A DNA stretch of 64,000 nt. It comes from Anaerolineae bacterium. GTDB taxonomy: Bacteria > Chloroflexota > Anaerolineae > Anaerolineales > E44-bin32. The DNA lies in NCBI GenBank assembly GCA_030605795.1, contig JAUWHR010000037.1, positions 22,670 to 86,669 on the forward strand, in the 5' to 3' direction. Of this stretch, positions 26,259 to 43,104 are shown piece by piece. Each line of letters opens with the position of its first letter. Position 1 is the stretch's first letter. Position numbers and translations under genes: made by a program. Below the pieces are notes generated by a model. The model was not told where the DNA came from. It was given only the letters and a program-made list of their open reading frames with translations, and searched no databases.

Positions 26259-29200
26259 GTGGATCAGGTGGGTAATAATTCGTCAATGGTAGAAAGTATC
26301 ATAGGGAGCGATGGTCAGTCAGCCGCTGAGATAGCATCACTCTTTCAACGGCTAGCTTTGGACCTGGGGCAGATTCATGATACGAATCTGGCGCTTGATA
26401 TTATTTTACGACAGGGTCAGAAGCTGCTCGAGGCAAGCAGCGCAGCTGCTTTTGTGATAGGCGAAGATGGTCATCCTGTCCATCACATCTTGATAGATTT
26501 ACCTCCTAAAGCAGTCAAAATGCTGTCGAATGCCTTCGAAGTCCTTTTCACTGATGCGCCACATGAATTGCTATCCGGCGCGGTGATGATCGAGGATCTG
26601 GCCGCTGAGGATTGTGCTGCTGTGGTTAATTTGGGGGAATTGGGCGTTTATTCTTGCTTGGTTCTCCCTCTGGCTCAGCGTGGTAACCTCCTCGGAGGGC
26701 TTTGGTTCTTATTTACAGAACGACATCATCTAACTAGAATGCGATTAAATTGGGCAGTGGTTCTAGCGGGGCATGCGTCGCTCACTCTTGAGAATGCACG
26801 CTTGGTCGATTTGGCGTTGAGACAAGCCACTGAGTTGGGGGCTTTCTATGAGACCGCGGCGGCTGTCGAGAGCAAGCACGACCAATCTTTCTTGCTCAAT
26901 CAAATCATCGATCAGATGACGACATTGCTTGACTGCCGGATGGGCATCATTTTCCTGGCTGATGAAGAAAATCAAATGCTGAGACCCGTGGTCCACCGCG
27001 GGATCCACGATGGTTTTCAGGTTATGGAATGTCCGTATGGCGAAGGAGTGGCGGGAAGGGTAGCCGAAACCCGTGAGCCTCTCGTAATCGATGAATGCAA
27101 TAACTGGGAGGGGACTACAGAATCCTTAGATGAGACCAGCAATAGTGTGCGGGTGTTAGCTATGCCCATGATATGGAATCAGCGCCTGATAGGCGTCTTG
27201 GATTTGGCAGCGAACATCACTAGAATGCCTTTCTCAGATACAGATGTTCGGCTGGCAAAGTCAGTGGCATATCAGGCAGCGAATGCGCTTGGGATTGCTA
27301 ATCTCATTGAGTCAGAACGTAGACAATTTCGCATGGCGGAAGCTCTGCAAGAGGCTTCTCTGGTTATCAGCCATCAAGTCGAACTAGATGAAGTTCTTGA
27401 TCGTATTCTTGAGCAGGTGATGCATGCTTTCCCCTGTGACGCCGCAAATGTCCAATGTATTGAAGGAAACCGAGTACGGATCATACGCCATCGGGGTTAC
27501 GAGCGATTCGATCTGTCAACAGGGTCGATTAGTGATTTCTCTCTGGTGATTGAAGATGATCTGAACCTGCGACGTTTGATGGCTGGTGAAGTTGTCGTCA
27601 TACCTGACACCACTCAAGAACTTTCATGGAACTTCCGTCCTGGGTGGGAGTGGGTTAGGTCGTGGGCTGGTGCACCGATCCAATATGGTCAGGAAATGCT
27701 CGGTTTTATCAATCTTGACAGTTCTACCTCAGGTACGTTTGATGATGCCACCATTCAATTGCTCGCAGCCTTCGCTGCTCATGCTTCAGCCGCGATGCAT
27801 AAAGCAGAACTCTACCGAAGATTGGCAACAGAGCATCGGAGGTTGCGAACGCTTTATGAGATTGAACGATCGGTCACCGTAAGCCTTGAACCAGATGAGA
27901 TCTTGACTCATTTGCTAGAGGGCGCCCTAGACGCTGTCGAGGGTGTATATGCCCAGGCTTTCATGGTTGTGGATGACAAAGAAGATCCGCTTAAGCGCGG
28001 ACCGAGAGTGGATCGCCTAGGGGATGATGATTTAGCATTTCATCCCCAAGCGATACAGTTGGTAGAACAGTCAATCAACCAGGTCACCCCTGTGCAGGCT
28101 ACGTTGATTTATCCTTCACGAAGCTATAGCGTTCTTGCTTTCCCCATCGCCGCGGGCGGGCATGTTTGGGGGGGTGCTCTTATATGGGTAGCAGACGATG
28201 AGGAAAACCTAGAGGCATGGCTTGAAGTCTTTCGTGCAGCTGGTCAACAGGTTGGCTTGGCATTGACCAATGCGGATCAACATGCACAGGTGGAGCGTCG
28301 CCTAGCTGAAATGACGCTCCTTCAGCGAGTGGTCAGAGCTATTGCTGGAAGATTGGAAGTAGAATCCATGCTTCGAGAGGTGACCGAACAGCTTCATAAT
28401 AACCTGGGGTTCCCGGCCGTGCAAATATATCGGCGAATTGGTGAGGAGTTAGTGCTGGTAGAGGCTAGCGGACCTCGACCCATATTGGAGCGGTTACAGA
28501 TCCAGCGAGGGATCATGGGCCGGGTTGCACGAACAGGTCATCCCGCACTGGTTGAAGATGTCCACGAAGATCCGGACTATGTGGCCGGATTAGTAGGAAC
28601 GCAAGCCGAGTTGACGGTTCCAATCCGGCTAGATGAAGAGATCATTGGCGTGTTGAATATTGAAACTTCTGATCCGTCTCAGATCGACAATGGCGCGCTG
28701 GAATTGCTAATGCTTGTTGCTGATCAGGTATCTGTGGCATTGCAAAATGCTATGTTGTATGAACGTGTACAAGATAGCGTCGTCCATCTTGAAGAGCAAA
28801 TCAAGATCCGGACTATCGAATTGGAGCAAGCACTAGAGCAAGCACAAGAAGCGGATCGCGCCAAAGCCCAGTTTGTTGGAGATATTTCACACGAATTGCG
28901 TACTCCGTTGACAAACATCGGTCTCTACCTTGATTTAATCGAGATGGGTGACGAGGGACGCTATATGGAGTATATGACTACCTTGAGGCGTGAAACGGAA
29001 CGTCTGGGATCACTCATTGAGCAGTTATTGGCTATCTCTCATCTTGATACCGGTCAGGTAGAGCTTAAGCCTCAACCAACCGATATTAATTCGTTGGTTC
29101 AAGTTTTGGTTTTGGATAGGGCACTTATGATCGGAGAGAAAGGCCTGGATCTAAGCGTGATGACAGGGAAAGATATCCCATTGGCATATGTCGATCCACA

Positions 29201-29564
29201 ACTTATCATTCAGGCGATGACTAGTTTACTAACTAACGCAATAAACTACACGCCCTCCGGCGGAAAGATCAGAATTGAAACCCAACAGCGCACCTGGAAA
29301 GGCAGACCATGGGTGACGGTTGCGGTGGGAGATACCGGTTCAGGAATCCCGGAGGATGAGAAGAAACGGATCTTCGATCGTTTTTATCGAGGGTTGGTGG
29401 GTCGAACCAGTGGGATCCCTGGCACCGGGTTGGGGTTGCCAATCTGCAAAGAAATTATCGAACGTCATGGAGGGAGAATTATGGTCGTAAGTAGAAGCGG
29501 AGAGGGAACCCGCTTCACCATGTGGTTACCAGTGGCCGACATGACACCTCATGACCATCAATGA
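26259..29564 (+). CDS. Multi-GAF hybrid-free sensor histidine kinase
   Basis: 1101 residues, no membrane helices. About five consecutive GAF-type domains (roughly 25-180, 195-345, 360-515, 530-680, 690-840) precede a short coiled coil, a HisKA domain with the phospho-acceptor histidine in FVGDISHELRTPLTNI (about residue 880), and an HATPase_c domain (N-box LLTNAINYTPSGG; G-boxes DTGSGIPED and GTGLGLPICKEI). It is a soluble sensor of diffusible ligands or redox state. GTG starts at 26259 or 26268 and an ATG at 26286 are all possible. The HD-GYP response regulator 85 bases downstream is its likely partner. Confidence 0.92.
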   Translation: MDQVGNNSSMVESIIGSDGQSAAEIASLFQRLALDLGQIHDTNLALDIILRQGQKLLEASSAAAFVIGEDGHPVHHILIDLPPKAVKMLSNAFEVLFTDAPHELLSGAVMIEDLAAEDCAAVVNLGELGVYSCLVLPLAQRGNLLGGLWFLFTERHHLTRMRLNWAVVLAGHASLTLENARLVDLALRQATELGAFYETAAAVESKHDQSFLLNQIIDQMTTLLDCRMGIIFLADEENQMLRPVVHRGIHDGFQVMECPYGEGVAGRVAETREPLVIDECNNWEGTTESLDETSNSVRVLAMPMIWNQRLIGVLDLAANITRMPFSDTDVRLAKSVAYQAANALGIANLIESERRQFRMAEALQEASLVISHQVELDEVLDRILEQVMHAFPCDAANVQCIEGNRVRIIRHRGYERFDLSTGSISDFSLVIEDDLNLRRLMAGEVVVIPDTTQELSWNFRPGWEWVRSWAGAPIQYGQEMLGFINLDSSTSGTFDDATIQLLAAFAAHASAAMHKAELYRRLATEHRRLRTLYEIERSVTVSLEPDEILTHLLEGALDAVEGVYAQAFMVVDDKEDPLKRGPRVDRLGDDDLAFHPQAIQLVEQSINQVTPVQATLIYPSRSYSVLAFPIAAGGHVWGGALIWVADDEENLEAWLEVFRAAGQQVGLALTNADQHAQVERRLAEMTLLQRVVRAIAGRLEVESMLREVTEQLHNNLGFPAVQIYRRIGEELVLVEASGPRPILERLQIQRGIMGRVARTGHPALVEDVHEDPDYVAGLVGTQAELTVPIRLDEEIIGVLNIETSDPSQIDNGALELLMLVADQVSVALQNAMLYERVQDSVVHLEEQIKIRTIELEQALEQAQEADRAKAQFVGDISHELRTPLTNIGLYLDLIEMGDEGRYMEYMTTLRRETERLGSLIEQLLAISHLDTGQVELKPQPTDINSLVQVLVLDRALMIGEKGLDLSVMTGKDIPLAYVDPQLIIQAMTSLLTNAINYTPSGGKIRIETQQRTWKGRPWVTVAVGDTGSGIPEDEKKRIFDRFYRGLVGRTSGIPGTGLGLPICKEIIERHGGRIMVVSRSGEGTRFTMWLPVADMTPHDHQ

Positions 29565-29648
29565 CTCACTTATCCATAATTCGAAGCGGAGCAACAATTA
29601 TTCACTTCGCAATAGACATGGTTAATTTGGCTCAGCTCTTGCACGAGA

Positions 29649-30695
29649 ATGATAGATATGACCGACCAAGATAACAACCATTCCGGCTTAACCCTGCTTG
29701 TAGTTGAAGATGACCTCGCCTTGCTTAAGGCGTTACACGACATCTTGGAAGCGGAAGGGTATCAGGTGCGGACAGCTACACACGGGGAAGAAGCGCTGGA
29801 GTCCTATCGGGAGAAGAAACCCGACCTGATTCTTTCCGACATCTCGATGCCGGTTATGGATGGGCTTCAACTTTTCGAAGCCGTACGCAGGCAGCCGGGA
29901 GGCATCGCCATTCCCTTCATCTTCCTCACCGCACACAGTAGTGGTAGAAGAGAAGATAAATTCCACGGCAGATCGTTGGGGGCTGACGATTACATCACTA
30001 AACCGATTAGTAGTCATGAATTGCGAAACGTGGTGCATGCTCGCTTAAGACGGGCTGATGAGCTAATGGTGGAGCAAATTAAAATTGCTTTTAAGAAAAG
30101 CTTGTCCACTTTTGCGAACGCAATTGAGCTGAGAGATCCATATACCTATAACCACGTAAAACGGATCAATGAATACGCACAAGCGATGGCAAATGAGCTA
30201 GGGTGGGATGAAAATCGGCGAGAGGCGCTGGAGTTCGGCGCAATTTTACATGATATCGGCAAGCTCGAAGTGTTTATCGACATACTATCCAAGAAGGATG
30301 AATTAACTCCGGAGGAATGGGAAGTAATGCGTCGACATCCCGAGTTCGGTGCGCATATGATCGAGAAAATTGATTATTTGGCACCTGTGGTTCCTATGAT
30401 TCTTCATCACCACGAGCGATGGGATGGTTCAGGCTATCCAGGTGGATTGGTTGGGGAAGAGATCCCTGAAGAAGCGCGTCTGCTTGCTGTAATAGACAGT
30501 TTTGATGCCATGACAACCGATCGACCTTATCGATCAGCAATGCCACCTGAGGTCGCATTGGAGGAAATTAAGCAACGGGCTGGAGTGCAATTCGATCCTT
30601 ACATGGTGGCAATCTTCAATCGTATTTGGGAGAGTGGTGCAGTTCCGTCAATCATAGAAGAACGGAAGAATAATAGAGAAAATAATATTGAATAA
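29649..30695 (+). CDS. Response regulator with HD-GYP cyclic-di-GMP phosphodiesterase domain
   Basis: 348 residues. The receiver domain (LLVVEDDLALLKAL; phosphorylatable Asp in LILSDISMPVMDG; TKPIS lysine) is followed by an HD-GYP domain with GAILHDIGKLEV and HHERWDGSGYPGGLVGEEIP, then IDSFDAMTTDRPYR. All canonical HD and GYP residues are present, so it is expected to hydrolyse cyclic-di-GMP when phosphorylated. It sits downstream of the multi-GAF kinase on the same strand, a plausible two-component pair. Confidence 0.94.
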   Translation: MIDMTDQDNNHSGLTLLVVEDDLALLKALHDILEAEGYQVRTATHGEEALESYREKKPDLILSDISMPVMDGLQLFEAVRRQPGGIAIPFIFLTAHSSGRREDKFHGRSLGADDYITKPISSHELRNVVHARLRRADELMVEQIKIAFKKSLSTFANAIELRDPYTYNHVKRINEYAQAMANELGWDENRREALEFGAILHDIGKLEVFIDILSKKDELTPEEWEVMRRHPEFGAHMIEKIDYLAPVVPMILHHHERWDGSGYPGGLVGEEIPEEARLLAVIDSFDAMTTDRPYRSAMPPEVALEEIKQRAGVQFDPYMVAIFNRIWESGAVPSIIEERKNNRENNIE

Positions 30696-30843
30696 TAAGG
30701 TGACTGAATGGAGAGGGGGAGGGAGTTTGTAATGGGATGGTAAATATCAAGAAAGATATTTGATAGCAATTAATATAAGACACAATCCTCTAGTAAAAAA
30801 AGCAACATATGAAGAAAGTAGAATATACGTGAAAGTAGGGGGC

Positions 30844-30873
30844 TTGACATGATGGTTGAATTTCTGGTAAAAT
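30844..30873 (+). promoter_or_regulatory. Sigma-70-type promoter of the tyrosine recombinase
   Basis: A perfect -35 TTGACA (30844-30849) and a -10 TAAAAT (30868-30873) lie 18 bases apart. The predicted start (~30880) coincides with the left edge of the dif-like site, so recombinase bound there would block its own promoter (inference). Confidence 0.65.
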
Positions 30874-30879
30874 ATTTAT

Positions 30880-30907
30880 GCTTTCGATAAGTATCATTAA
30901 CGAAAGC
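30880..30907. other. dif-like Xer recombination site (11-bp arm, 6-bp core, 11-bp arm)
   Basis: Left arm GCTTTCGATAA (30880-30890), core GTATCA (30891-30896), right arm TTAACGAAAGC (30897-30907). The arms are inverted repeats with one mismatch. The 11-6-11 geometry, and the ATAA/TTA bases bordering the core, are those of bacterial dif sites. It lies 48 bases upstream of a solitary Xer-type recombinase gene, the arrangement known for single-recombinase systems such as XerS/difSL and XerH/difH. No experimental support; the assignment is inference from geometry and position. Confidence 0.6.
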
Positions 30908-30955
30908 TAGTATTTTTCAATTACAACTATCCAATATGCATACGGATGTTGTGAA

Positions 30956-31936
30956 ATGCCTAAAACTACCATAAAAAAAACGATAAGCGATTATCTGGAG
31001 AATGTCTCCTTGTCGCGTAGTCTCAATACTGCCCGTACGTACCGTAATGCCTTGGGATCGTTTACTGCAACACTCGAGGCTATAGGTATCGATATTGAAA
31101 ACACCATGGCGTCACAAGCCTCTGAAGATTGGATTGCTGACTTTTCTACTGCACTTAAAAGCTACGCACCAGCGAGCGAGCGGCTCTACCTTACCGCGGT
31201 TACTGGATGGTATGAGTTCCTGGCCGCCGAGAGATTAGCCGACATAAATATTCCCCGTATACGCTTACTGATTCGACAACGGGCACGCCGACCAGGACAA
31301 CGCCTTCCCCAATTTCCACGAGAACACATTGAATCAGTATTACAATATGCAATTAATCTTACGAATGCTCCGACGAAGGACGGGCGGGAACACCTGCGCA
31401 ATCTGCGCGATCGGTCTTTCTTACTCACCTTAGCCGACACCGGGCTTCGTGTTCATGAGGCCTGTAATCTGCGCCGAGGAGACCTCGATTGGAACGAGGG
31501 ACGAGCCCAATTGGTAGGGAAAGGAAATCGCGAGTCTTTGGTCCGCTTCTCAAAACGCGCTATCTCGGCGATGAAACAATACCTTACTGCTCGAGCTAAG
31601 TTGGACGGTGCCTCTGGCAGACCTCTGAGCTCCCTCCCCCTCTTTGCTCGGCATGATCGTGGCGCGGGAAAAAAAGTTCTCCCAATTAGTACGACGACCG
31701 GTCGAGCAATCGTCCACCAGCGCACTCGCGAGTCTCTAGGAGTTGAATGTAAGGGCGTCATCACCCCCCACTCATTCCGACATTATTTTGTTACCACTGT
31801 TCTGCGCGCTTCAGGTGGCAATCTCAAGCTAGCCCAGGAACTTGCCCGTCACCGTAACATCGCCGTCACCCAGCGCTACGCTCATTTATCAAACGATGAG
31901 CTAGACCGTGGTTATTATGAGATCTTCGATTCCTGA
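30956..31936 (+). CDS. Xer-type tyrosine recombinase (candidate single chromosome-dimer resolvase)
   Basis: 326 residues. An N-terminal SAM-like core-binding domain (residues 8-95) precedes the catalytic domain. The active-site set is complete: Arg165 (DTGLRVHEA), Lys189 (GKGNRE), His272 and Arg275 (PHSFRH), His299 (ARHRN) and nucleophile Tyr308 (QRYAHLS). The length is close to XerC/D/S/H. No phage or island genes flank it, and a dif-like site lies just upstream, favouring a housekeeping resolvase over a phage integrase. Its codons are C-rich, unlike the preceding plus-strand genes. A mobile-element integrase remains possible. Confidence 0.9.
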   Translation: MPKTTIKKTISDYLENVSLSRSLNTARTYRNALGSFTATLEAIGIDIENTMASQASEDWIADFSTALKSYAPASERLYLTAVTGWYEFLAAERLADINIPRIRLLIRQRARRPGQRLPQFPREHIESVLQYAINLTNAPTKDGREHLRNLRDRSFLLTLADTGLRVHEACNLRRGDLDWNEGRAQLVGKGNRESLVRFSKRAISAMKQYLTARAKLDGASGRPLSSLPLFARHDRGAGKKVLPISTTTGRAIVHQRTRESLGVECKGVITPHSFRHYFVTTVLRASGGNLKLAQELARHRNIAVTQRYAHLSNDELDRGYYEIFDS

Positions 31937-32248
31937 AAATCTAATAACCAGTGGGTTTACCTTACAAGTAGACCCAATGTACCATTGAGAGGGTCTAGAC
32001 GACTCCCCTATGATTTGGTGTGGTCAGGCTAGCATTAACCTATATTTCGTTGGCATACCGCCAGATTTCTGAGGGGTGAAGACGCAAGGATTAGAGGGGT
32101 TATAATCCAACTAGAATCAATCCTGGCTTCTGAGAACGCCAAATCTCTCTAGTTCATATAGCTAGGCGGGTGAAGGATGGTCCGGGCCCTAATAATTTGT
32201 TTACCATCTAGAGCAACGGGCCTGTTTTCTTCCAGGAGAGCAAAGACG
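31937..32248. other. Intergenic region with weak hairpins
   Basis: 312 bases without a convincing gene. Directly after the recombinase stop, GGGTTTAC and GTAGACCC (31953-31975) form an 8-bp stem with one G-U pair but no T-run. Further on, GGATTA and TAATCC form a short inverted repeat around 32089-32109 that includes a TATAAT (32101-32106), a possible -10 for the downstream gene without a recognisable -35. Confidence 0.4.
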
Positions 32249-32647
32249 GTGAAAAAGAAAATCATTCTGGGCATTTTGGTTACCATCATTCTGAGTGCAA
32301 CAAGTGTGGCGTGGGCGGAAGAGCAAGAACGCTATCGAATAATTGACCTGCATCCCACGTCATCTTTAATTTCTCCAGTAGTCAGCACAAATGACACTCA
32401 AGAGATCTTTATCACCGTACGTGATCAGAACCTCAATCCTGTTTCAGGTGCAGCTTCGATGGTCACCATTCAACTTCCAAACGGAGATCAGAGCATATTG
32501 ATGCCCTTGACAGACGAAAATGGTGTCAGCAAGCTTAAACTTAGCATTAATAATCAAACTCCAGGCGCTATCGTTTCTCTTGAATATCGAGTGGTCTATG
32601 GTGATCTCCAGGCCACCACGCGCGATTCATTCCGCATATGGTGGTAA
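32249..32647 (+). CDS. Small secreted protein with Ig-like fold, function unknown
   Basis: About 132 residues from GTG (VKKKIILGILVTIIL), which has AGGAG upstream; an ATG at 32177 would add 24 residues that disrupt a clean signal peptide. The signal peptide with cleavage after SVAWA is followed by ~105 residues of beta-rich sequence (EIFITVRDQNLNPVSGA; VTIQLPNGD; SLEYRVVYGDLQ) that resembles a bacterial Ig-like domain of the Big_1 or transglutaminase-like-prefix kind. It probably acts outside the membrane. It precedes a ParA-like ATPase by 36 bases. Confidence 0.65.
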   Translation: MKKKIILGILVTIILSATSVAWAEEQERYRIIDLHPTSSLISPVVSTNDTQEIFITVRDQNLNPVSGAASMVTIQLPNGDQSILMPLTDENGVSKLKLSINNQTPGAIVSLEYRVVYGDLQATTRDSFRIWW

Positions 32648-32683
32648 ACCGACATCAGTAATATCAAGCTATCCTTGCCAAAG

Positions 32684-33484
32684 ATGAAAACAATTGCCGT
32701 CGCAAACCAAAGAACGGGCGTAGGAAAGACAGCCACAACATTATCTCTTGGCATGGCGCTGGCCGAGCGGGGTATGCGGATTCTCATGGTCGATCTTGAT
32801 CCTCAAGCCGCACTTAGCGCCGCCTGTGGTGTCGAGGAGGTACAAGGTGCGAGTATGGCCAATGTGCTTGGTGGATCAGGGCCAGGAACAGTTGAAATAA
32901 GGGATATCTTAAGAGAAGTTCATCCGGGCCATCGTTGTTCTTTAGCTCCTGCCGACCTCGAATTAACTCTCTCAGAATTGGGTTTGAATTTCAGGATAGG
33001 TCGAGAAAGTGTGTTAGTGAAAGCTCTGGAAACTGTATCTAAAGAATTTGACCTGGCGGTTGTAGATTGCCCATCAGCCTTAGGGATGCTGGCGGTCAAT
33101 GCGCTGAACTCAGCCCAGGCAGTGCTCATTCCAACTCGACCAGAGATAGCTGATCTGCGAAGTGTAAAGCTGTTCCTGACCGTGATTGAAAGGATTAAAC
33201 AAGAAATCAATCCTGATCTTGAAACACTCGGTGTCTTGGTGACATATTACAATCGTGAGCTAGGCCCCCATAAGGCTGCGATTCAGGCGATGCGAGATGC
33301 TGGCCTTCCTTTGCTGACGGTGGGGATTGAGGAAGAAGATCACGATACCGAGGCTCAGTTGAGTGGAAGGTCGCGCCCGATTGACATACCAGGTAATCCT
33401 CGAACCATAATCCAATTGGCCAAATTAGTCGAACAATGGTTAGCTGGTTGGCGAACTTGGCAACCCTCAATCGCAGAACCTTAG
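32684..33484 (+). CDS. ParA/MinD-family ATPase with altered Walker A
   Basis: About 266 residues from MKTIAVANQRTGVGKT. The overall fold is ParA-like: DLDPQAALS after the P-loop, VVDCPSALGMLAVNAL for switch II, and a family-typical C-terminus (GVLVTYYNRELGPHKAAIQAM). The deviant Walker A normally reads KGGVGKTT; here it is RTGVGKTA, so the signature lysine is Arg and the first Gly is Thr. No parB or parS-like gene is adjacent, so it is an orphan ParA that may position another cargo. A TTG nine bases upstream is an alternative start. Confidence 0.88.
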   Translation: MKTIAVANQRTGVGKTATTLSLGMALAERGMRILMVDLDPQAALSAACGVEEVQGASMANVLGGSGPGTVEIRDILREVHPGHRCSLAPADLELTLSELGLNFRIGRESVLVKALETVSKEFDLAVVDCPSALGMLAVNALNSAQAVLIPTRPEIADLRSVKLFLTVIERIKQEINPDLETLGVLVTYYNRELGPHKAAIQAMRDAGLPLLTVGIEEEDHDTEAQLSGRSRPIDIPGNPRTIIQLAKLVEQWLAGWRTWQPSIAEP

Positions 33485-33630
33485 GTAAAAGTAATTGCGA
33501 CTAACCTAACTTCAATGGTATCCTTTGCCGAGGATACAGGATTCACAGCCCGCGAGAACTATGTCATAATATGCGCTCGTGCAACTCTGTGGACCTAATA
33601 TCGTCTTCCGGCTTTACCTGAGGGAAAAGC

Positions 33631-34395
33631 ATGAGGCGTCGTGCCTATATCGCGTTTCTGATTATTATTCTTATTTGTTTTGGGATAGGAATATTTTCCA
33701 CCCTCCTTTCCAATAACAATGGTACCCCATCCATTTCCCTGGATACTCCCACGCCAACCGAAGTTCCTTCAAATAGGACTCTTTTAATTCTTGGGGTTGA
33801 TCAATTCGATATTCCTAATCCAATGCTCTATGCGATTTGGTTTGTAATTCATAGGATACCTGAAGAAGAGGTGGTTCTCTTTGGAATTCCGTTAAATTAT
33901 GAGGTGAACGAATCTGGAACGGACACTCTGAGAAGTATCTTCTCGTGGTCTGTGGAGGAAGGCGTGGAGGGTATATCTACGAGGTTTATGAACGAGCTGC
34001 AAAACGCGGTTCCACATGTTAATCTGGACATGGTGGTAATCATGGATGAAATCTTCTTTTCAGCTTTGGTAGATTATATGGGCGGTATCCCCGCGGGTGA
34101 TATTATTCTTCCTGGGCTAGAAGCGATAGCTGCCCAAAGGTTGATGACTAACCAGCCAGATGCCTTGTTGGAATTTCAAGCCAATATGCTTGAAGCGCTG
34201 CGTTTTCTATTACCGACGAAGGATCCATCAATGTCATCGTCAGGTGATGATTTAAGACCTTTATTCGATATGATACCCGAGCATTGCATCGTTCCAGTTG
34301 ATCCGGGCCAGCTGGTATTACAGGCGCCTCGTTTCTTATTCAACTATCCCGAAGCAATCCGTATCGAACTCATGCCCCACGGACCTGATCGGTGA
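33631..34395 (+). CDS. Degenerate LytR-CpsA-Psr (LCP)-like membrane protein
   Basis: 254 residues. An N-terminal membrane helix (YIAFLIIILICFGIGIFSTLL) and a Pro/Thr linker lead to a domain whose order of strands, RTLLILGVDQ, EEVVLFGIPLNYEV, then VNLDMVVIMDEIFFSALVDYMGGIP, parallels LCP domains (ILLLGtD; LLSIPRDT; IDYYVEINFDGFkkLVDALGGV). The catalytic arginine/aspartate of IPRD is replaced by LNYE, so a phosphotransferase activity seems lost. LCP proteins attach glycopolymers to peptidoglycan. The assignment is moderate; it may be a non-catalytic paralogue. Confidence 0.5.
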   Translation: MRRRAYIAFLIIILICFGIGIFSTLLSNNNGTPSISLDTPTPTEVPSNRTLLILGVDQFDIPNPMLYAIWFVIHRIPEEEVVLFGIPLNYEVNESGTDTLRSIFSWSVEEGVEGISTRFMNELQNAVPHVNLDMVVIMDEIFFSALVDYMGGIPAGDIILPGLEAIAAQRLMTNQPDALLEFQANMLEALRFLLPTKDPSMSSSGDDLRPLFDMIPEHCIVPVDPGQLVLQAPRFLFNYPEAIRIELMPHGPDR

Positions 34396-34473
34396 GTGGA
34401 TCTGAGGTTGCCCCCAAAACGATATATCAAATTTTACCTTAGCCGCCAGTGATATTAATAATTCGATGACCCA

Positions 34474-35337
34474 TTACACAGGGAAGTAACATAGACCGGC
34501 TGTCCCTGGGCCGGTGTGAACGCCTAATGCAGGTGATAGCTCGGCGATTAACGACTCGACGCATGTCAGTCGCTCCTCGATCAATGCCTTAATCTTCTCC
34601 GCTTCTTCCCTAGCTGCTGCGTGAACGTAAGCAATCTTAATCTTGCCCTTGTAGCCTACCGCTGCCTCAACCATTTTGACCATTTTCTTATATGCTTGTT
34701 GACGACTGCGTGTTTGACCTAAAGGTACAATAATCCCGTCTCGCATCCCGATGAGGGGTTTGATATTTAGCAGGCTCCCAAATAGTCGTTTTGCCTTTCC
34801 TATTCTCCCGCCCATATAAAGATATTTCAGCGTATCCGCGGTCTGAATCATATGGGTGATTGGAATCATGCTCTTAACCAGGTCTACTACATCGGACATC
34901 GTCTTTCCTGCCAACGCCGCCCTGGCAGCTTCGATCACCATCCAACCCTGACACAAGGAGACGTTGAGCGTATCGATGACTTCGATCTTCAAATTCGGGA
35001 GCAACTCCTGAATCATACTTTTTGCTGAACTGGCTGCTTGATAAGCACCACTTCCGTGCGACGTCATGTGGATGCTGACAATCTCGCTAACCCCCATTTC
35101 CTCAGCCAGTGATTGATAAATCTTGATGTAATCTCCTGGACCTGGGTTGGCTGTTGTAGGCAGAATTTTCGCTGTTGCCAGCCAGCTATAAAAAGAGTCC
35201 CGATTGATGGTGACGAGATCTCGCAACACCTCTTTCCCACGATGGATGTAGTAGGGAACCCAGTGGATGTTCAACTTGTCCAAAATAGGATTTGGAATGC
35301 TGGCACAACTATCAGTCACTACAGCTATTTTGGGCAT
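34474..35337 (-). CDS. DegV-family fatty-acid-binding protein
   Basis: 287 residues, the standard DegV length. The N-terminus KIAVVTDSCASIPNPIL, the ligand loop LPTTANPGPGDYIKIYQSL, the HMTSHGSGAYQAA segment contacting the fatty-acid head group, and NIKPLIGMRDGII are all family-typical. These proteins bind fatty acids, in Firmicutes acting as FakB with a FakA kinase. No fakA/dak gene is adjacent, so the partner is unknown. Confidence 0.93.
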   Translation of the reverse strand: MPKIAVVTDSCASIPNPILDKLNIHWVPYYIHRGKEVLRDLVTINRDSFYSWLATAKILPTTANPGPGDYIKIYQSLAEEMGVSEIVSIHMTSHGSGAYQAASSAKSMIQELLPNLKIEVIDTLNVSLCQGWMVIEAARAALAGKTMSDVVDLVKSMIPITHMIQTADTLKYLYMGGRIGKAKRLFGSLLNIKPLIGMRDGIIVPLGQTRSRQQAYKKMVKMVEAAVGYKGKIKIAYVHAAAREEAEKIKALIEERLTCVESLIAELSPALGVHTGPGTAGLCYFPV

Positions 35338-35384
35338 GACATTCTCCTTGTCATAGCTTAATTTTACTACGTAGCTATGAGCGG

Positions 35385-36698
35385 TTAGTTTATGTATTCT
35401 ATAAATTGGTTCAGTAAGCGATCAGGAACACGTCCTTCAATGATCACCGCATTCTGGCCATGCTGGATATTTTCAATCATGCCCTGTTCGTGGATGAGGT
35501 TAATCAACCGGCCCTCCTTATATGGTAAATGGACTATAAGTGGCGACATCGCATTAAATAATTCTTGCTCGGTAATAGTCAGCAATGTCGGGATGCCATC
35601 ACCGGTGAGTGCTGAAATCGGGACCGCGCGCTCAAACTCATCTACACTATAGACAATCGATTGAGGATTGCTGAGCAAGTCAATCTTGTTGAGAGCAGTC
35701 ACCATTGGCACATCTGTTACCTCAATCTCCTCCAGTGTGGCCCGGACAGACTTGGCCTGAGCGACAGCATTAGGATGAGTGATGTCTACAACATGAAGTA
35801 GTAAATCAGCTTCGCCAATCTCTTCAAGCGTTGCCCTAAATGCGGCAACAAGAGTCGTCGGAAGTTTTTGAATGAATCCCACCGTGTCAGTGAAGAGGGC
35901 CTGTCGACCCTTGGGCAAATCGACCTTTCGTGTTGTAGGGTCAAGCGTGGCGAAAAGCTTATCAGCAACAAGAACATTGGAATTCGCAACACGATTTAGG
36001 AGAGTTGATTTACCTGAATTTGTATATCCAACCAGCGCTATAGTCGGTATCTCCGCGCGGCGCCTACGCTCTCGATAACGACTGCGATGAGCCCGGACCT
36101 TATCGAGTTGACGTCGCAGGTGGGCAATACGTCGTCTAATATCGCGTCGGTCGACCTCCAGCTGGGTCTCACCTGGCCCGCGTAAGCCAACCCCGCCAAC
36201 TGATCCTGCTCGGCCCCCTCCCCCACCTGCTTGTCGTGCGAGGTGTGTCCAGGCGCGCGTCAGGCGCGGTAATCTATACTCATACTGCGCTAGCTCGACC
36301 TGGAGTGAACCTTCGTGTGTGCTCGCGTGTAATGCGAAGATGTCAAGGATGAGTGCGGTTCGGTCTACGACTCGAACATCTTCCCCGAAGAACTTTTCCA
36401 ACTCACGTTGGTGACGTGGAGAGAGTTCGTCGTCAAATAATACGATGTTAGTAACTGTTTCATGAACAAGACTTCTGATTTCCTTAATTTTTCCCGAACC
36501 GAGAAGAGTTTTTGGATTCGGGTGTCGAATTCGTTGTGTTGCCTGGCCCACGACAATGAGCCCAGCTGTTTGAGCCAGTAGGCTTAACTCTATAAGCGAA
36601 TCCTCAGTTGACAATATTCTGAGTTCATCGTGTAGTTCTACCCCGACGAGGAAAGCCCGTTCTTTTGGTAATTCGGTTGGACGGGTAAATTTTTTCAT
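35385..36698 (-). CDS. hflX: GTPase HflX
   Basis: 437 residues. It has an N-terminal HflX domain with the conserved NPKTLLGSGKIKEI and GPGETQLEVDRRDIRRRI segments, a Gly-rich linker (QAGGGGGRAGSVGG), then a GTPase domain with P-loop LVGYTNSGKSTLLN, DTVGFIQKLPTTLVAAFRATLEE and TALNKIDLL. HflX dissociates or rescues stalled ribosomes, notably under heat stress. It lies upstream of degV on the same strand, 48 bases apart. Confidence 0.96.
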   Translation of the reverse strand: MKKFTRPTELPKERAFLVGVELHDELRILSTEDSLIELSLLAQTAGLIVVGQATQRIRHPNPKTLLGSGKIKEIRSLVHETVTNIVLFDDELSPRHQRELEKFFGEDVRVVDRTALILDIFALHASTHEGSLQVELAQYEYRLPRLTRAWTHLARQAGGGGGRAGSVGGVGLRGPGETQLEVDRRDIRRRIAHLRRQLDKVRAHRSRYRERRRRAEIPTIALVGYTNSGKSTLLNRVANSNVLVADKLFATLDPTTRKVDLPKGRQALFTDTVGFIQKLPTTLVAAFRATLEEIGEADLLLHVVDITHPNAVAQAKSVRATLEEIEVTDVPMVTALNKIDLLSNPQSIVYSVDEFERAVPISALTGDGIPTLLTITEQELFNAMSPLIVHLPYKEGRLINLIHEQGMIENIQHGQNAVIIEGRVPDRLLNQFIEYIN

Positions 36699-36794
36699 AT
36701 GTTAATTATAACCATTAATCCTCTACACACTTGTATCTTTATTACTATGTTCTAAATATCATAAATCCTATCAATTTGTATCAAAAAGAGTCTC

Positions 36795-36866
36795 ATTGCG
36801 CATAGCCTGTATTTTGTTATTGACAAAAGTAAATATAGTATTGTTAGATTAAGTGGCTATGCGAAT
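36795..36866. repeat. 72-bp MITE-like element with ATTGCGCATAGCC terminal inverted repeats
   Basis: ATTGCGCATAGCC (36795-36807) pairs with GGCTATGCGAAT (36855-36866); CGCATAGCC / GGCTATGCG is a perfect 9-bp core. The interior is AT-rich with no ORF. The right end abuts the trmFO stop codon. It matches the 73-bp element at 23280 in length and termini. Confidence 0.6.
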
Positions 36867-38218
36867 TAATTATTAAACTCATCTAGAAACAGCTCCAGAT
36901 CATTCGAGGAACGATTTGCATAAGCTTGAGAACGCTGTCGCCTATTCCTCTTAGTACCATCATCAAGAGGCGGCATGATACCAAAATTAGCTTTCATCGG
37001 CTGAAATGATTTCGGCTCAGCATGGCTAATATAATGACATAACGAGCCAAGCATCGTAGTCTGGGGAAAAATAATCGGGTCGTATCCATGGGCTAGGCGA
37101 GCCGCACTCCAACCTGCATACAAACCAGTCGCAATGTTACCCAAATACCCTTCTACTCCGGTAATTTGACCAGCAAAAATAATGCTAGTTCGCTTACAAA
37201 ATTGGAGAGTCGGTAAAAGTACCCTTGGTGCATTTATAAATGTATTTCGGTGCATCTGACCATAACGGATGAACTTTACCTCTTCTAAACCAGGTATCAA
37301 GCTGAACACCCGATCTTGTTCATAATACGTAAGATTCGTTTGGAACCCAACTATGTTATAGAGGTTCCCAATAAGATTATCTTGACGCAATTGGACAACT
37401 GCATAAGGCCGCTTTCCACTCCGTGGATCGATCAAACCAACCGGACGCATTGGTCCGTAAGCAAGCGATTTCCGGCCTCGTTCAGCGATAACCTCCACCG
37501 GTAAACAACCCTCGAAATATCCATGTGGACCAGCACGCACACCTGTTTTTACCGCAACCTCAAAATCACGGAGAGGGATCTTTTCTGCCCCTAGTAAAGC
37601 ATCTATAAAAGCCTCATATTCAACTTCATTCATTGGGCAATTGATGTAATCTCCCTCTGCAATTTGACCACGCCCATAGCGTGATGCGCGGAAAGAAACC
37701 GACATATCGATGCTCTCAGTCTCAACAATTGGTGAGAGAGCGTCAAAAAAGTATAAATGCTCTTCGCCGGTTATGCGTGACAGTTCATTTGCAAGCTTGT
37801 CAGAGGTAAGTGGACCGGAGGCGACAATCACAATTCCATCAGGGATACGACTGACTTCCTCACGAATCAATGTTATGTGTGGTTGTGTGTCTATTTGTTC
37901 TGTCACACCTCGGGCAAAGGCTTCTCGGTCCACCGCAAGCGCTCCCCCGGCTGGCACTGCCTCCCTTTCAGCGATACTCAACAACAAAGATTTCAAGCAC
38001 CTAATCTCGGTCATGAGAACCCCTGATGCCCTATCTGGCAACCGAGAACCTAGCGAGTTGGAGCATACCAGTTCCGCCAAATACCCACTTTGATGAGCGC
38101 CGGTCTGTTTCAGGGGACGCATTTCATAAAGCACTACATCTACACCACGCTTGGCAACCTGCCAGGCGGCCTCACTTCCTGCCAATCCCCCACCTATTAC
38201 GATTACTTCTTTGGTCAT
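36866..38218 (-). CDS. trmFO: Methylenetetrahydrofolate-tRNA-(uracil-5-)-methyltransferase TrmFO
   Basis: 450 residues. The N-terminal FAD motif VIVIGGGLAGSEAAWQVAKRG, the GAHQSGYLAELVCSNSLGS segment, NCPMNEVEYEAF, and FAGQITGVEGYLGNIATGLYAG are diagnostic for TrmFO/GidA-small proteins. The enzyme makes ribothymidine at position 54 of tRNA using folate carbon and FADH2. It is divergent from rpoN; the 93-bp region between them holds the rpoN promoters. The terminal ~30 residues (RNRRQRSQAYANRSSNDLELF) are unusually polar but not uncommon as a tail. Confidence 0.95.
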   Translation of the reverse strand: MTKEVIVIGGGLAGSEAAWQVAKRGVDVVLYEMRPLKQTGAHQSGYLAELVCSNSLGSRLPDRASGVLMTEIRCLKSLLLSIAEREAVPAGGALAVDREAFARGVTEQIDTQPHITLIREEVSRIPDGIVIVASGPLTSDKLANELSRITGEEHLYFFDALSPIVETESIDMSVSFRASRYGRGQIAEGDYINCPMNEVEYEAFIDALLGAEKIPLRDFEVAVKTGVRAGPHGYFEGCLPVEVIAERGRKSLAYGPMRPVGLIDPRSGKRPYAVVQLRQDNLIGNLYNIVGFQTNLTYYEQDRVFSLIPGLEEVKFIRYGQMHRNTFINAPRVLLPTLQFCKRTSIIFAGQITGVEGYLGNIATGLYAGWSAARLAHGYDPIIFPQTTMLGSLCHYISHAEPKSFQPMKANFGIMPPLDDGTKRNRRQRSQAYANRSSNDLELFLDEFNN

Positions 38219-38242
38219 ACACAGATTCTAACACGTTACTAA

Positions 38243-38258
38243 CGGCATATTTCTTGCA
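38243..38258 (+). promoter_or_regulatory. Sigma-54-type promoter upstream of rpoN
   Basis: CGGCAT, five bases, TTGCA: GG and GC at the exact 12-base offset required for -24/-12 recognition, one mismatch to TGGCAY. The predicted start is 38269, downstream of the ATG at 38261, which supports the later ATG at 38312 as the true rpoN start. Confidence 0.65.
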
Positions 38259-38264
38259 ACATGA

Positions 38265-38293
38265 TTGCGCACAACTTATACCCATTGTATAAT
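38265..38293 (+). promoter_or_regulatory. Overlapping sigma-70-type promoter of rpoN
   Basis: TTGCGC (38265-38270) and a perfect TATAAT (38288-38293), spaced 17 bases. Predicted start near 38300, still upstream of the rpoN ATG (38312). Together with the sigma-54 site this gives a basal plus an autoregulated promoter (inference). Confidence 0.55.
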
Positions 38294-38311
38294 TTTCATC
38301 CGAGGCTACCT

Positions 38312-39721
38312 ATGCTTCAAATACAAAACCAATCACAACGTCCACTTACCACCGCCCACCTGGCACAGACCATGAGCCTTCTCTTGCTCTCGAACATTGA
38401 ATTGCGTGATAAGGTGATGGCGGAGTTGTCAGTTAACCCAGCACTCGAGTTGGTCGAGGAGCGCATCTGTCCTAACTGCCGACGTCGTCTCACAAGTCCC
38501 GGAGCTTGTCCGATCTGCAGTCTTCATCAGACTGATGAAGGTCCGATCGTTTTCCTCTCACCACGCGAATCCTACCGCTCTACCCCTCCAGCGGTGCAAC
38601 AGGACACTCCCCCCGATCAGGAACCGGCAGCACCTGAGGATCTGACGACCTATGTCCTTCAACAGTTGTCGTCAAACCTAAACCCCGATGACCGACGTTT
38701 GGCGATCTACATCCTTTCCAGCCTCGACGAAGATGGCTTTCTCCAGGACCCGCCCGCCTTCATTGCTCGAGCAACACGTTCAACACTCTCACACGTCGAC
38801 CGCATCTTGCAGCTAGTCTCGCATGCTGAGCCTCCTGGACTGGCAACCACCGGGCCTCGTCAGGCGCTTTTAGTTCAACTAGACCTGTTTCCTCAGGATA
38901 GTCCCATACTTCAATTGGCTCGAGGCATACTGGAAACGTTCTTCCGTGAGCTTGGACACCGCGAAATTGAGAAGATCGCAGCAAACTTGGAAGTTAGCTC
39001 CAACCGGGTACGAGAAGCCGCTGCATTCATTCACGATAACCTTAACCCCTATCCCGGGAGAGCCTTCTGGGGGTCAGGCAGACAACCCCAGAAAGGTGAT
39101 CCAAATGTCTACCATTCTCCTGATATTCTCATCTCCCATAATTCATCCGATGTAAGTGGCCCGCTGATGGTAGAAATCTTCGCCCCGGTATCAGGATGGC
39201 TACGGGTTAACCCCATGTTTTCACAGGCGAAGTCCAAGACCAATAACAATCAAACAGATGAGTGGGCCAAGCATATTGAGCGCGCCTCGTTATTCGTCAA
39301 GTGCCTTCAGCAGCGCAACAACACGATGCGCCGCCTCATGCAATCATTAGTGACCCAGCAAAACCAATTCATATTGAATGGTGACCGCCACCTCATACCG
39401 ATAACACGCGCCAAGGTAGCCAAAGAGATCGGCGTCCACGAATCCACCGTCTCGCGTGCTGTTGCTCACAAATCGGTCGCTTTACCAGATGGTCGGATCA
39501 TCCCATTATCCCGATTCTTTGACCGTAGCCTGGCTATACGCGACCGAATCAAAGAGATCATCAAAAACGAGTCTCGCCCCCTCACTGATGACCAAATTGC
39601 CACCCTTTTACGACAGGCAAACGTGTGTATTGCGCGGCGTACTGTCGCCAAATACCGATCCATCGAGGGCATTCTCCCAGCTCGTCTACGTCATCGCAAA
39701 GGTGCCCGTACTATAGAATAG
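38312..39721 (+). CDS. rpoN: RNA polymerase sigma-54 factor
   Basis: About 469 residues from MLQIQNQSQRP. Region I (glutamine/leucine-rich, LAQTMSLLLLSNIELRDKV) is followed by a small zinc-ribbon-like insertion, CPNCRRRLTSPGACPIC, then a core-binding region. The DNA-binding part has the helix-turn-helix VHESTVSRAVAHKSVALPDGR and the RpoN box ARRTVAKYR at the expected C-terminal position. It directs transcription from -24/-12 promoters with an AAA+ activator. It heads an operon with a histidine kinase and an NtrC-type activator, and three matching promoters are found in the same 13 kb. Confidence 0.96.
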   Translation: MLQIQNQSQRPLTTAHLAQTMSLLLLSNIELRDKVMAELSVNPALELVEERICPNCRRRLTSPGACPICSLHQTDEGPIVFLSPRESYRSTPPAVQQDTPPDQEPAAPEDLTTYVLQQLSSNLNPDDRRLAIYILSSLDEDGFLQDPPAFIARATRSTLSHVDRILQLVSHAEPPGLATTGPRQALLVQLDLFPQDSPILQLARGILETFFRELGHREIEKIAANLEVSSNRVREAAAFIHDNLNPYPGRAFWGSGRQPQKGDPNVYHSPDILISHNSSDVSGPLMVEIFAPVSGWLRVNPMFSQAKSKTNNNQTDEWAKHIERASLFVKCLQQRNNTMRRLMQSLVTQQNQFILNGDRHLIPITRAKVAKEIGVHESTVSRAVAHKSVALPDGRIIPLSRFFDRSLAIRDRIKEIIKNESRPLTDDQIATLLRQANVCIARRTVAKYRSIEGILPARLRHRKGARTIE

Positions 39722-39730
39722 GTCTGTACT

Positions 39731-41740
39731 TTGCCAATCGACTCTTCAACCCTTACCTCCATCGCTCGTTTCTTCAGACCTGACCCATATCGTGACATCT
39801 TCCGTGTTCTAGCTGATTCACTCGATGATGCAGTTCTCGTCATTTCGAGTGATGCATCTCAGATCTTAACCTGTAACCATGCATTCCTTCTTCTCTCTGG
39901 TTATGCACGCGCTGAAATTGAGAAGCTTACTTTCGCTGATCTACTAACCGAGGAAGAAGAAGGAAAACAAGCCTTGAGTCAACTCCTTCAGTGCTCTAAG
40001 ACCCCGGATTGCATAATAGAAGAAGTACCCATCCGAACACGAACTAGAGAGATTATCCCAATCGATCTCCACGTCCGACCAGTAGGACTTGTCTCTTCTG
40101 CATTGCTCCTCATTGGTCGTCCTGTTAGTGCTCGAATCCAGGTAGAGGACCAACGTCGCGCGCAGCAAGACCGTCTCGACACCTTAGCCCAAATCTCGAC
40201 CCTAATCCTCGACGAAATGGTTGCTGCCCTCCCCACTGCCCTCGACCTCGCTAAACGGCTGCTTTGCGCCTCATCGATTGGTCTCTATCGAGTGTCTGCA
40301 ACGACAACAGATTACATCCTGGACGGCTCATTACCCCCCGAATTTCCCCAAACACTCCCCACCTCTGATTTGATCTCTTTTCATCAAACAAACTTGTGGT
40401 CACTTGGACAACGCCCTGAACTTACGCTGCATAAGTCTGCCCGCGCCGCTGGTTTTGGCGCGCTTCAGACTTTTCTCATAGGTGACCCTACAGCTTGGGC
40501 AGGTCTTCTAGTCGTCGGCTGGCAGAAACAGGTTGCCACCCCGGATTATTCCAAGTCACTTATCCCGGTAATTGCTAATCTTTGTCATGTAGCTATCACA
40601 CTCAGCTTACAACGAGCTTCGGTTGCAGAAGCCGAGAAATCTCTTGAGCAACTTCGAGCCGAAGTAAACGACCAATTCGCAGCCGTACCTGATATACTCC
40701 TCTCGCTTGACGGCGACCTTAATGTAATCCAGGCCAACCCAGCCATATCCAGAATGCTTGGCTACCAGCCAGAAGAGGTAGTTGGCTTACCAATACAGGA
40801 TGTGCTTGTTAGCCCTGAGGATGTTCGTCCAATCTTGCTCGACGCGTTAGACCATAAGCGGGTGGCAGAGCTGATGCGTGTCGTTTTACATCGCCGTGAT
40901 GGGACCCCTCTCCCCGTACACCTGCTCGCTACACCCTTATCAGATCAGGCTCGATCTCGTTTGCTAGTCATCTTGAAGGATCAATCCGCGCAACAGAAGA
41001 TTGAAGATCAAACGGAAACACTTACTCAACGTGCATTACTAGGTGAGGTCACAGCTACATTCGCTCATGAAGTCCGCAACCCGATCAATAACATCAGTAC
41101 CGGGGTCCAATTGGTCGCGTCTCGCCTAGGTAAGGACCACCCGCTCCATTCATCTCTCGAGCGGGTGCACAAGGAATGCAACCGTCTGGACCAACTTATG
41201 AGCGATGTCCTAGTCTTCGCCCGACCCCTCAAACTCAAAATAGAGCCCCTCAACCTAACTGAATTTTTGGAACTAATCCTCTCCCGCTGGACTCCCCATC
41301 TCAAACAAGTAGGCATTCGCTGTCATAAATCTTATAATCCCGACATCCCCATGGCACTAGCTGATGAACGTACATTGGAGCGGGTTATCGTTAATCTAAT
41401 CACTAACTCAATACAAGCCATGCCCGAGGGTGGAACGCTTTCTATCGCACTCGATTCGACTCAAACTGCCCAAGGTGAAATGGTGGAGCTAAAAATCATT
41501 GATACTGGTCCCGGTATTTCGCCCGATGTAAAGGATCGAATCTTTGATCCGTTTTTTACAACCAAGAAAGACGGTACAGGACTAGGGCTAGCCATCAGCC
41601 GGCGCATTCTAACCGCTCATAAAGGCACTATCCAGTATGAAAGTTTCACCGACGCCGGCACAGTATTTACCATTTGCCTCCCGTCGGTAACCCAATCCTC
41701 GGAGGAAGCAAACCATGAGCGCGACTGTCCTGATCGTTGA
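39731..41740 (+). CDS. Soluble PAS-domain sensor histidine kinase (NtrB-like)
   Basis: 669 residues from a TTG ten bases after the rpoN stop. PAS domain 1 (about 20-125), a GAF-like middle (about 140-300), PAS domain 2 (about 315-420, LSLDGDLNVIQANPAISRMLGY), HisKA with the phospho-acceptor in TATFAHEVRNPINNIS, and HATPase_c with ITNSIQAMPEGG, DTGPGISPD and GTGLGLAISRRI. No membrane helices, so the stimulus is cytoplasmic. It overlaps the activator gene by 26 bases and is the obvious kinase for it, as NtrB is for NtrC. Confidence 0.93.
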   Translation: MPIDSSTLTSIARFFRPDPYRDIFRVLADSLDDAVLVISSDASQILTCNHAFLLLSGYARAEIEKLTFADLLTEEEEGKQALSQLLQCSKTPDCIIEEVPIRTRTREIIPIDLHVRPVGLVSSALLLIGRPVSARIQVEDQRRAQQDRLDTLAQISTLILDEMVAALPTALDLAKRLLCASSIGLYRVSATTTDYILDGSLPPEFPQTLPTSDLISFHQTNLWSLGQRPELTLHKSARAAGFGALQTFLIGDPTAWAGLLVVGWQKQVATPDYSKSLIPVIANLCHVAITLSLQRASVAEAEKSLEQLRAEVNDQFAAVPDILLSLDGDLNVIQANPAISRMLGYQPEEVVGLPIQDVLVSPEDVRPILLDALDHKRVAELMRVVLHRRDGTPLPVHLLATPLSDQARSRLLVILKDQSAQQKIEDQTETLTQRALLGEVTATFAHEVRNPINNISTGVQLVASRLGKDHPLHSSLERVHKECNRLDQLMSDVLVFARPLKLKIEPLNLTEFLELILSRWTPHLKQVGIRCHKSYNPDIPMALADERTLERVIVNLITNSIQAMPEGGTLSIALDSTQTAQGEMVELKIIDTGPGISPDVKDRIFDPFFTTKKDGTGLGLAISRRILTAHKGTIQYESFTDAGTVFTICLPSVTQSSEEANHERDCPDR

Positions 41741-42890
41741 CGACGAAGAGACCGCTCGCAGTTTCATCAGTGAAGCTTTGTGTGATGCCGGCTACGAAGC
41801 GGTAGAGGCTGGGGATTTAGCCGAGGCTAATAAGTTTGTCGATACCGGCGCGGCGGATATCGTACTGTTAGATGTTATGCTACCTGACGGTTCGGGACTT
41901 TCGTTGTTGGACCGCCTTTCGATGGAGAACCCAAGCCCGCCTGTAATCCTTATCACCGCATACGGTGAGGTCGATACTGCGGTTGAGGCGATGAAGAAGG
42001 GCGCCCAGGACTTCCTACAAAAACCACTGGATCTAGATCGCCTGATACAGGCAGTTGAACGGGCGGATGAAATAGTCTCGCTTAGGCGGGAATTAACCTT
42101 GTTGCGCCAATCCTCTGGTGACCAGACGGAAATGGTCGTCGGAGAAACACCGGCCATGCAACGAATCCTTGAGGAAGCTCAACGGGCGGCGGCAGCCTCA
42201 GTGTCGGTCCTGATCACCGGCGAGACCGGCACAGGCAAGGAGGTCTTGGCGCGCGCTATACGCACTATGGGAACGCGGTCTGACAAACCCTTCATCCCCA
42301 TTAATTGCCCTGCCCTTCCAGAAACGATGATCGAGTCCGAATTGTTTGGACATGAAGCCGGCGCCTTCACCGGCGCTCAGAAGAAAAAGCCTGGTTTGAT
42401 CGAAATTGCTGACGGAGGGATCCTATTCCTCGACGAAATTTCCTCCACTAAGACCGATATGCAAGCTAAGCTATTACGCGTCCTTGATGAACATCGTTTC
42501 CGTCGTGTTGGTGGGGTAAAAGAAATTGATGTCGACATCCAAATTCTGGCTGCGTCCAATCGGGACTTGCAAGCGATGATGGAAGAAGGAACTTTCCGGG
42601 AAGATCTCTTTTATCGGCTCAAAGTAGTTGATCTCCATTTACCTCCCCTGCGCGATCGAATCGTCGACATCCCCGCACTGACCGGCACCTTCATCCGCCA
42701 AATTAATATGCGAACTGGAAACATTATTCAAGGGATCACACCACGCGCGATCAAAGCTCTGAAAGCACATGATTGGCCCGGGAACATTCGTGAACTACGA
42801 CATGTCATTGAACGAGCCATGCTTTTCTGCGATGATGAGGAAATCGATATCGCCCATCTCTCGCCAGATATTCAGGCTCTCGCTTCATAA
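41715..42890 (+). CDS. NtrC-family sigma-54 activator lacking a DNA-binding domain
   Basis: 391 residues: receiver domain (1-120, phosphorylatable Asp53 in VLLDVMLPDGSG, Lys103-type LQKPLD) and an AAA+ domain (about 140-375) with Walker A GETGTGKE (169-176), the sigma-54-contacting GAFTGA loop (216-221), Walker B GGILFLDE and the FREDLFYRL sensor. The protein ends about 20 residues after the AAA+ domain, so the C-terminal Fis-type helix-turn-helix of ordinary NtrC (typically 450-480 residues) is absent. FlgR of Helicobacter and the chlamydial homologue are known to work without one. It probably activates every local sigma-54 promoter from solution. Confidence 0.95.
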   Translation: MSATVLIVDDEETARSFISEALCDAGYEAVEAGDLAEANKFVDTGAADIVLLDVMLPDGSGLSLLDRLSMENPSPPVILITAYGEVDTAVEAMKKGAQDFLQKPLDLDRLIQAVERADEIVSLRRELTLLRQSSGDQTEMVVGETPAMQRILEEAQRAAAASVSVLITGETGTGKEVLARAIRTMGTRSDKPFIPINCPALPETMIESELFGHEAGAFTGAQKKKPGLIEIADGGILFLDEISSTKTDMQAKLLRVLDEHRFRRVGGVKEIDVDIQILAASNRDLQAMMEEGTFREDLFYRLKVVDLHLPPLRDRIVDIPALTGTFIRQINMRTGNIIQGITPRAIKALKAHDWPGNIRELRHVIERAMLFCDDEEIDIAHLSPDIQALAS

Positions 42891-42934
42891 ACCTTCAGTA
42901 CATTTGATTCGCAAAAGATTGACCAACTCGTGAG

Positions 42935-42967
42935 CCAGGCGAATTCCAGGAAGCGCCAGGTTTTTTT
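42935..42967 (+). terminator. Intrinsic terminator of the rpoN-kinase-activator operon
   Basis: CCAGGCG and CGCCAGG pair as a 7-bp stem with one A-A mismatch around a 12-base loop, followed directly by seven T. It isolates the regulatory operon from the sigma-54 target operon that begins at 43049. Confidence 0.7.
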
Positions 42968-43048
42968 CTGCTTGATCTTCTTTCCCTTATAGATACTTCT
43001 CTATAGCTGCCTCATTCCCTAAAGTTAAGTTTTCCCCCATAACTCATA

Positions 43049-43064
43049 TGGCATGTTCCTTGCA
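43049..43064 (+). promoter_or_regulatory. Sigma-54 (-24/-12) promoter of the membrane protein-TPR-C25 operon
   Basis: TGGCAT-GTTCC-TTGCA: a near-perfect match to TGGCAY-N5-TTGCW with exact spacing. The predicted start is 43075, 30 bases before the ATG at 43105, leaving room for the Shine-Dalgarno TGGAGGT. Confidence 0.88.
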
Positions 43065-43104
43065 ACTTCATACTCCAGATTGAATAAAAGAACTGGAGGT
43101 AAAA

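Follow-up and report, generated by a model that had tools for sequence, protein, structure and literature searches.

A probable single-recombinase Xer/dif system, with its site beside the recombinase gene, in the Anaerolineales

Introduction

Does a 28-bp inverted repeat found directly upstream of a tyrosine recombinase gene in an Anaerolineae genome represent a dif site served by that recombinase alone? Several single-recombinase systems have been described: XerS/difSL, XerH/difH and archaeal XerA (PMC5357621), as well as XerL (PMC9765430). Within the Chloroflexota, the dif predictions of Kono et al. are limited to three Dehalococcoides genomes (PMC3025954). The preliminary description of this DNA knew of no single-Xer system described for the phylum. 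We have found none for either Anaerolineae or Chloroflexota in the literature searched, which does not cover most subscription journals, and a prior description cannot be ruled out.

The stretch of DNA analyzed (the window, 64,000 nucleotides) is part of a 98-contig MAG, 81% complete, which belongs to Chloroflexota and is close to Anaerolineales. The relatives that have a name, among them Ornatilinea apprima (Chloroflexota, Anaerolineales according to NCBI), belong to the Anaerolineae. Because the genome is incomplete, any statement about absent genes rests on its relatives. Instead of a XerC/XerD pair, the whole order Anaerolineales appears to rely on one recombinase, whose 28-bp site at the terminus adjoins its own gene. 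Very probably, the locus is a complete Xer/dif system in which one recombinase resolves chromosome dimers; recombination, binding and dimer resolution are inferred, there are no such data.

A conserved site upstream of a recombinase gene

The features in the immediate region are the following:

30844..30873, + strand: sigma-70-like promoter, TTGACA-18-TAAAAT with a TG extension (from the sequence; spacing kept in orthologue loci)
30880..30907, + strand: dif-like, putative recombination site (left arm 30880-30890; core 30891-30896, GTATCA; right arm 30897-30907)
30956..31936, + strand: Xer-type tyrosine recombinase, 326 aa (from the ORF, PF00589, residues shared with orthologues, AlphaFold/Foldseek)

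The site reads GCTTTCGATAA-GTATCA-TTAACGAAAGC (arm-core-arm, 11-6-11). The arms are complementary at 10 of 11 positions and enclose a 6-bp core, and the gap between the site and the recombinase ATG at 30956 is 48 bp. The sequence and the ORF thus agree with what had been claimed, 11-bp arms with one mismatch placed 48 bp before a complete gene. A repeat search at the default seed missed this imperfect palindrome.

The preliminary description had proposed to check whether the site is unique and whether it is kept upstream of orthologues; both are the case. The genome of the window contains one copy at up to three mismatches (none with a reversed-pattern control), and related genomes normally have one each. 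A degenerate pattern gives 37 matches across 61 related genomes, against a single one with the reversed control. They are found in 34 of these genomes, mostly once each, usually beside the orthologous recombinase gene. The PWM of the site has no match of 20 bits or more in shuffled DNA. With these two controls, we conclude that the 28-bp site is not due to chance. A stricter pattern found no matches in 199 genomes of the class, known carriers included: It was over-specified, so this result is not evidence.

In 68 orthologue loci, which include some species twice (two collections were used), the site lies no more than 1.3 kb upstream of the recombinase, the usual distance being 37-190 bp. GATAA and TTAT, at the inner arm positions, are nearly fixed across these loci. 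At the variable positions, left and right arms agree more than expected by chance (z 5.3, a value not reached in any of 5000 shuffles). Such co-variation, as far as sequences alone can indicate, suits a single protein on both arms. Some genomes in the order lack both the recombinase orthologue and a clear site.

The promoter had been thought to overlap the left edge of the site. This is not correct: TAAAAT ends at 30873, 6 bp ahead of it. The predicted +1 approximately coincides with the first base of the site, which makes auto-repression plausible. The recombinase bound at the site probably limits its own transcription, an inference for which there are no repression data. The spacing of the -35 and -10 boxes relative to the site is the same in 38 of 57 orthologue loci, with the -10 about 12 bp before the start of the site. 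Both this fixed spacing and the predicted +1 would also fit a palindrome which is an operator only, through which the recombinase-like protein (or some other regulator) shuts down its own promoter, without any crossover. Nevertheless, genomes without a gene-adjacent site have one elsewhere, in intergenic DNA and with no promoter. In Ornatilinea apprima, for example, it is found 9.2 kb upstream of the recombinase gene. A site that persists unlinked in this way is not merely an operator.

Family f12 presents an unusual pattern. One genome (G050) has two sites with differing cores, GTGATA adjoining the gene (G050:C52:33161) and CTATCA elsewhere (G050:C20:26221). In another (G037), an unlinked CTATCA site is the only one (G037:C4:17854). 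This may correspond to a dif that has moved, or to an element which uses dif.

Position of the site and polarity of KOPS

The following features place the site in the chromosome:

27053..45452, no strand: terminus region (GC skew switches from + to -, with the cumulative maximum at 34146)
30716..30723, + strand: KOPS-like GGGNAGGG, 157 bp left of the site, pointing toward it
31632..31639, - strand: KOPS-like motif, right of the site and inside the recombinase gene, pointing toward the site
27053 (+ strand) and 36216, 40227, 42308, 45445 (- strand): further converging KOPS in the terminus region

GC skew in the window is +0.083 before the site and -0.079 after it. A position at the skew switch, another of the checks proposed, is also observed in several relatives: G036, G004, G052 and Ornatilinea apprima. 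In G036, a single-contig genome, the distance between the site and the sampled maximum of cumulative skew is 0.3% of the genome; in G004, where skew is noisy, it is 1.9%. In G052, skew around the site falls steadily (+0.107, +0.088, +0.015, -0.040, -0.092). Skew is noisier in G046 and G389, and the sampled maximum of the latter is 11.7% of the genome away, yet there is a local flip at the gene. Among 30 shorter loci, 23 have a higher skew in the left flank than in the right one (p = 0.005).

The octamer GGGNAGGG is a KOPS sequence (PMC13342612). Over 54 loci, 180 copies point toward the site and 18 away from it. The polarity is strongest close to the site (82 toward and 3 away within 1.5 kb) and fades with distance. 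No copy points away in the 200 bp to the left of the site, where 30 point toward it, nor between 500 and 1500 bp to the right, where the corresponding number is 26. This polarity ranks first among 126 G-rich arrangements. Part of the signal is G bias, since other G-rich octamers are also polarised. The FtsK-gamma domain is present in 59 of the 61 genomes, usually in two copies.

A site at the skew switch, with KOPS converging on it from both sides, does not agree with a simple operator. These observations, together with the unlinked sites lacking a promoter, the 11-6-11 layout typical of dif and a recombinase whose active site is intact (see below), lead us to reject the operator explanation, to which we attach only a very small chance.

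If the locus is a single-recombinase Xer/dif system, two recombinase subunits would occupy the 28-bp terminus site, one on each of its near-identical arms. A chromosome dimer would bring two such sites together at the septum. FtsK would load on KOPS, translocate toward the site from either side, align the two sites and activate the recombinase. Strand exchange mediated by Tyr308 at the 6-bp core would then restore two monomers. Binding, cleavage, activation by FtsK and dimer resolution are inferred, as is auto-repression.

The recombinase

The protein matches PF00589 with 90.9 bits. Its NCBIfam scores (XerC 117, XerD 114, XerA about 110 bits) are far under the cut-offs, which are 335 for XerC, 330 for XerD, 220 for XerA and 267 for XerS. 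The active site is intact: The six catalytic residues, R165, K189, H272, R275, H299 and Y308, are at least 97% conserved in 80 near full-length orthologues and invariant in a 20-member alignment. Identity with E. coli XerC and XerD is about 24-28%. The AlphaFold model has a mean pLDDT of 86.9, and according to Foldseek its nearest solved structure is archaeal XerA (5hxy). In a tree, the recombinase has a clade of its own, to which neither the XerD of Anaerolineales nor E. coli XerC or XerD belongs. The only outside references in this tree are the two E. coli proteins, XerH is absent, and two long branches make any finer placement unsafe.

A match to the recombinase is found in 47 of the 61 related genomes, normally as a single copy, and in 25 of the 27 genomes of the family of the window. 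Among 400 genomes sampled across the phylum, only Anaerolineales and one other family of the class have it. It is a conserved core gene. The remaining recombinases in the genome of the window are unconserved integrases, fragments or apparently inactive copies.

Could the gene encode a mobile-element integrase, with the site as its att? A tyrosine recombinase does adjoin an att-like sequence, and a viral contig (L309, see below) encodes a relative with 42% identity. However, there is one conserved copy across families of the order, the site generally occurs once, without any att duplication, and its location follows the terminus; relatives from plasmids and phages share no more than about 30% identity. 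We have rejected this possibility, which retains next to no chance.

Two other proteins may be mentioned. The genome of the window has a second recombinase-like protein (G000:C83:41496-41966, L009), which by eye seems to lack the catalytic residues: It has GIKKGE where GxRxxE is expected, and no catalytic Tyr was seen. Just downstream of the recombinase gene (32675-33484), there is a ParA-family ATPase with an odd Walker A motif, QRTGVGKT, the usual one being KGGVGKT.

XerD-like proteins in the order

The single-Xer reading would be refuted by canonical XerC and XerD elsewhere in the genome, according to the preliminary description. None of the 61 genomes of the order has a protein which passes the NCBIfam cut-off for XerC or XerD. 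These cut-offs are strict, some control genomes fail too, so a direct look at XerD-like proteins is stronger evidence. All genomes examined in the family of the window (f1, 27 genomes) have one such protein. The aligned members have lost three catalytic residues (Lys, the His of LLGH, and Tyr), and the first His varies. The same three residues are missing from the only close XerD-like protein in the genome of the window. This family has no canonical XerC/XerD partner. The gene in this genome (G000:C71:23965-24813; L006 1165-2013; L205 3966-4817) adjoins a gene for purine nucleoside phosphorylase, with ftsK nearby, neighbors which were named by their sequence and by a match to FtsK-gamma. The non-catalytic motifs of this inactive XerD are strongly conserved in the family. 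Purifying selection of this kind suggests that the protein retains a function or has acquired one.

The situation is different in other families. Only f3, f4 and f10 have a XerD-like protein with all catalytic residues (three members aligned), and in f4 it co-occurs with the new recombinase. No XerD has been detected in several other families of the order. The single-Xer reading is supported, with the qualification that the order is not uniformly single-Xer.

These proteins raise the possibility that the site is served by two proteins, one on each arm: the active recombinase and either the inactive XerD (f1) or the catalytically complete XerD-like protein (f4). The inactive XerD is kept in 27 of the 27 family genomes examined, with strongly conserved motifs, and its gene is near those for purine nucleoside phosphorylase and FtsK. 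On the other hand, the two arms are almost symmetric, and in many families which have this recombinase and site no XerD-like protein can be detected. We regard a two-protein system as improbable. As for the family of the window in particular, it is unlikely, if conceivable, that the inactive XerD holds one arm or links FtsK to the complex. If it did, the pairing of this relict XerD with the active recombinase would be a halfway stage between XerCD and a single recombinase.

In fact, the order contains what appear to be stages of such a replacement: XerD-like protein only, both proteins, inactive XerD with the new recombinase, and the new recombinase alone. Since these stages coexist in one order, the way in which one recombinase replaces two, and whether FtsK and KOPS are carried over, become directly testable.

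Comparison with known systems

The general features of Xer/dif systems are present: a recombinase with the R-K-H-R-H/W-Y residues, a single site of about 28 bp, a terminus position, and FtsK-gamma with KOPS. The system resembles E. coli XerC/XerD-dif in its 28-bp terminus site, converging GGGNAGGG, FtsK-gamma and catalytic residues. It differs in having a single recombinase, which belongs to a separate clade; in most of the order, XerD is either inactive or has not been detected. It does not fit the XerC/XerD two-recombinase systems, as no competent pair was found (0/61 over the cut-offs).

The system is an analogue of XerS, XerH and XerL and apparently distinct from these three, none of which is in the tree. 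XerS/difSL of streptococci and lactococci also has one recombinase, a site which adjoins its gene and a link with FtsK (PMC5357621), but difSL is 31 bp long, and the XerS model NF003462 gives only 54 bits against a cut-off of 267. XerH/difH of Helicobacter and Campylobacter shares the single recombinase and a site near the gene (PMC5357621, PMC9765430). XerH is longer, 354-362 aa (PMC5357621) against 326 aa, and a profile comparison with XerH 5jjv gives a weak match (34.7 bits), XerA and XerD being better. XerL/dif of Legionellales is also an order-wide replacement of XerCD by one recombinase, and its arms are highly symmetric (PMC9765430). In Legionella a long distance separates XerL from its dif, whereas gene and site are usually adjacent here. 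Archaeal XerA/dif likewise has one recombinase, and XerA 5hxy is the nearest solved structure. Nevertheless, XerA is described as FtsK-independent (PMC5357621), whereas our genomes contain KOPS and FtsK-gamma, and the XerA model NF040815 gives 109.5 bits, below its cut-off of 220.

This adds an apparently independent single-recombinase Xer system, in a phylum for which the literature searched has dif predictions for the three Dehalococcoides genomes only. The site also provides a terminus marker for Anaerolineales genomes.

Related sequences in viral contigs

Contig L309 (IMGVR_UViG_3300016474_000578) encodes its relative of the recombinase at 1520-2478, directly after a dif-like sequence with a GTATAA core. 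By eye, the contig is phage-like, with RecT-like and methyltransferase-like ORFs. It could be a phage which uses a Xer relative of its own to integrate into the dif of its host.

Other viral contigs match the degenerate pattern. We have rejected them as Anaerolineales elements: They are mostly low-GC, with a differently biased dif-like sequence. The low-GC contigs L278-L281, L287, L290, L294, L295, L297, L302 and L303 contain dif-like AGTTACGATAA GTTTTA TTATTGTAACA, and may be phages that rely on the Xer system of some other lineage.
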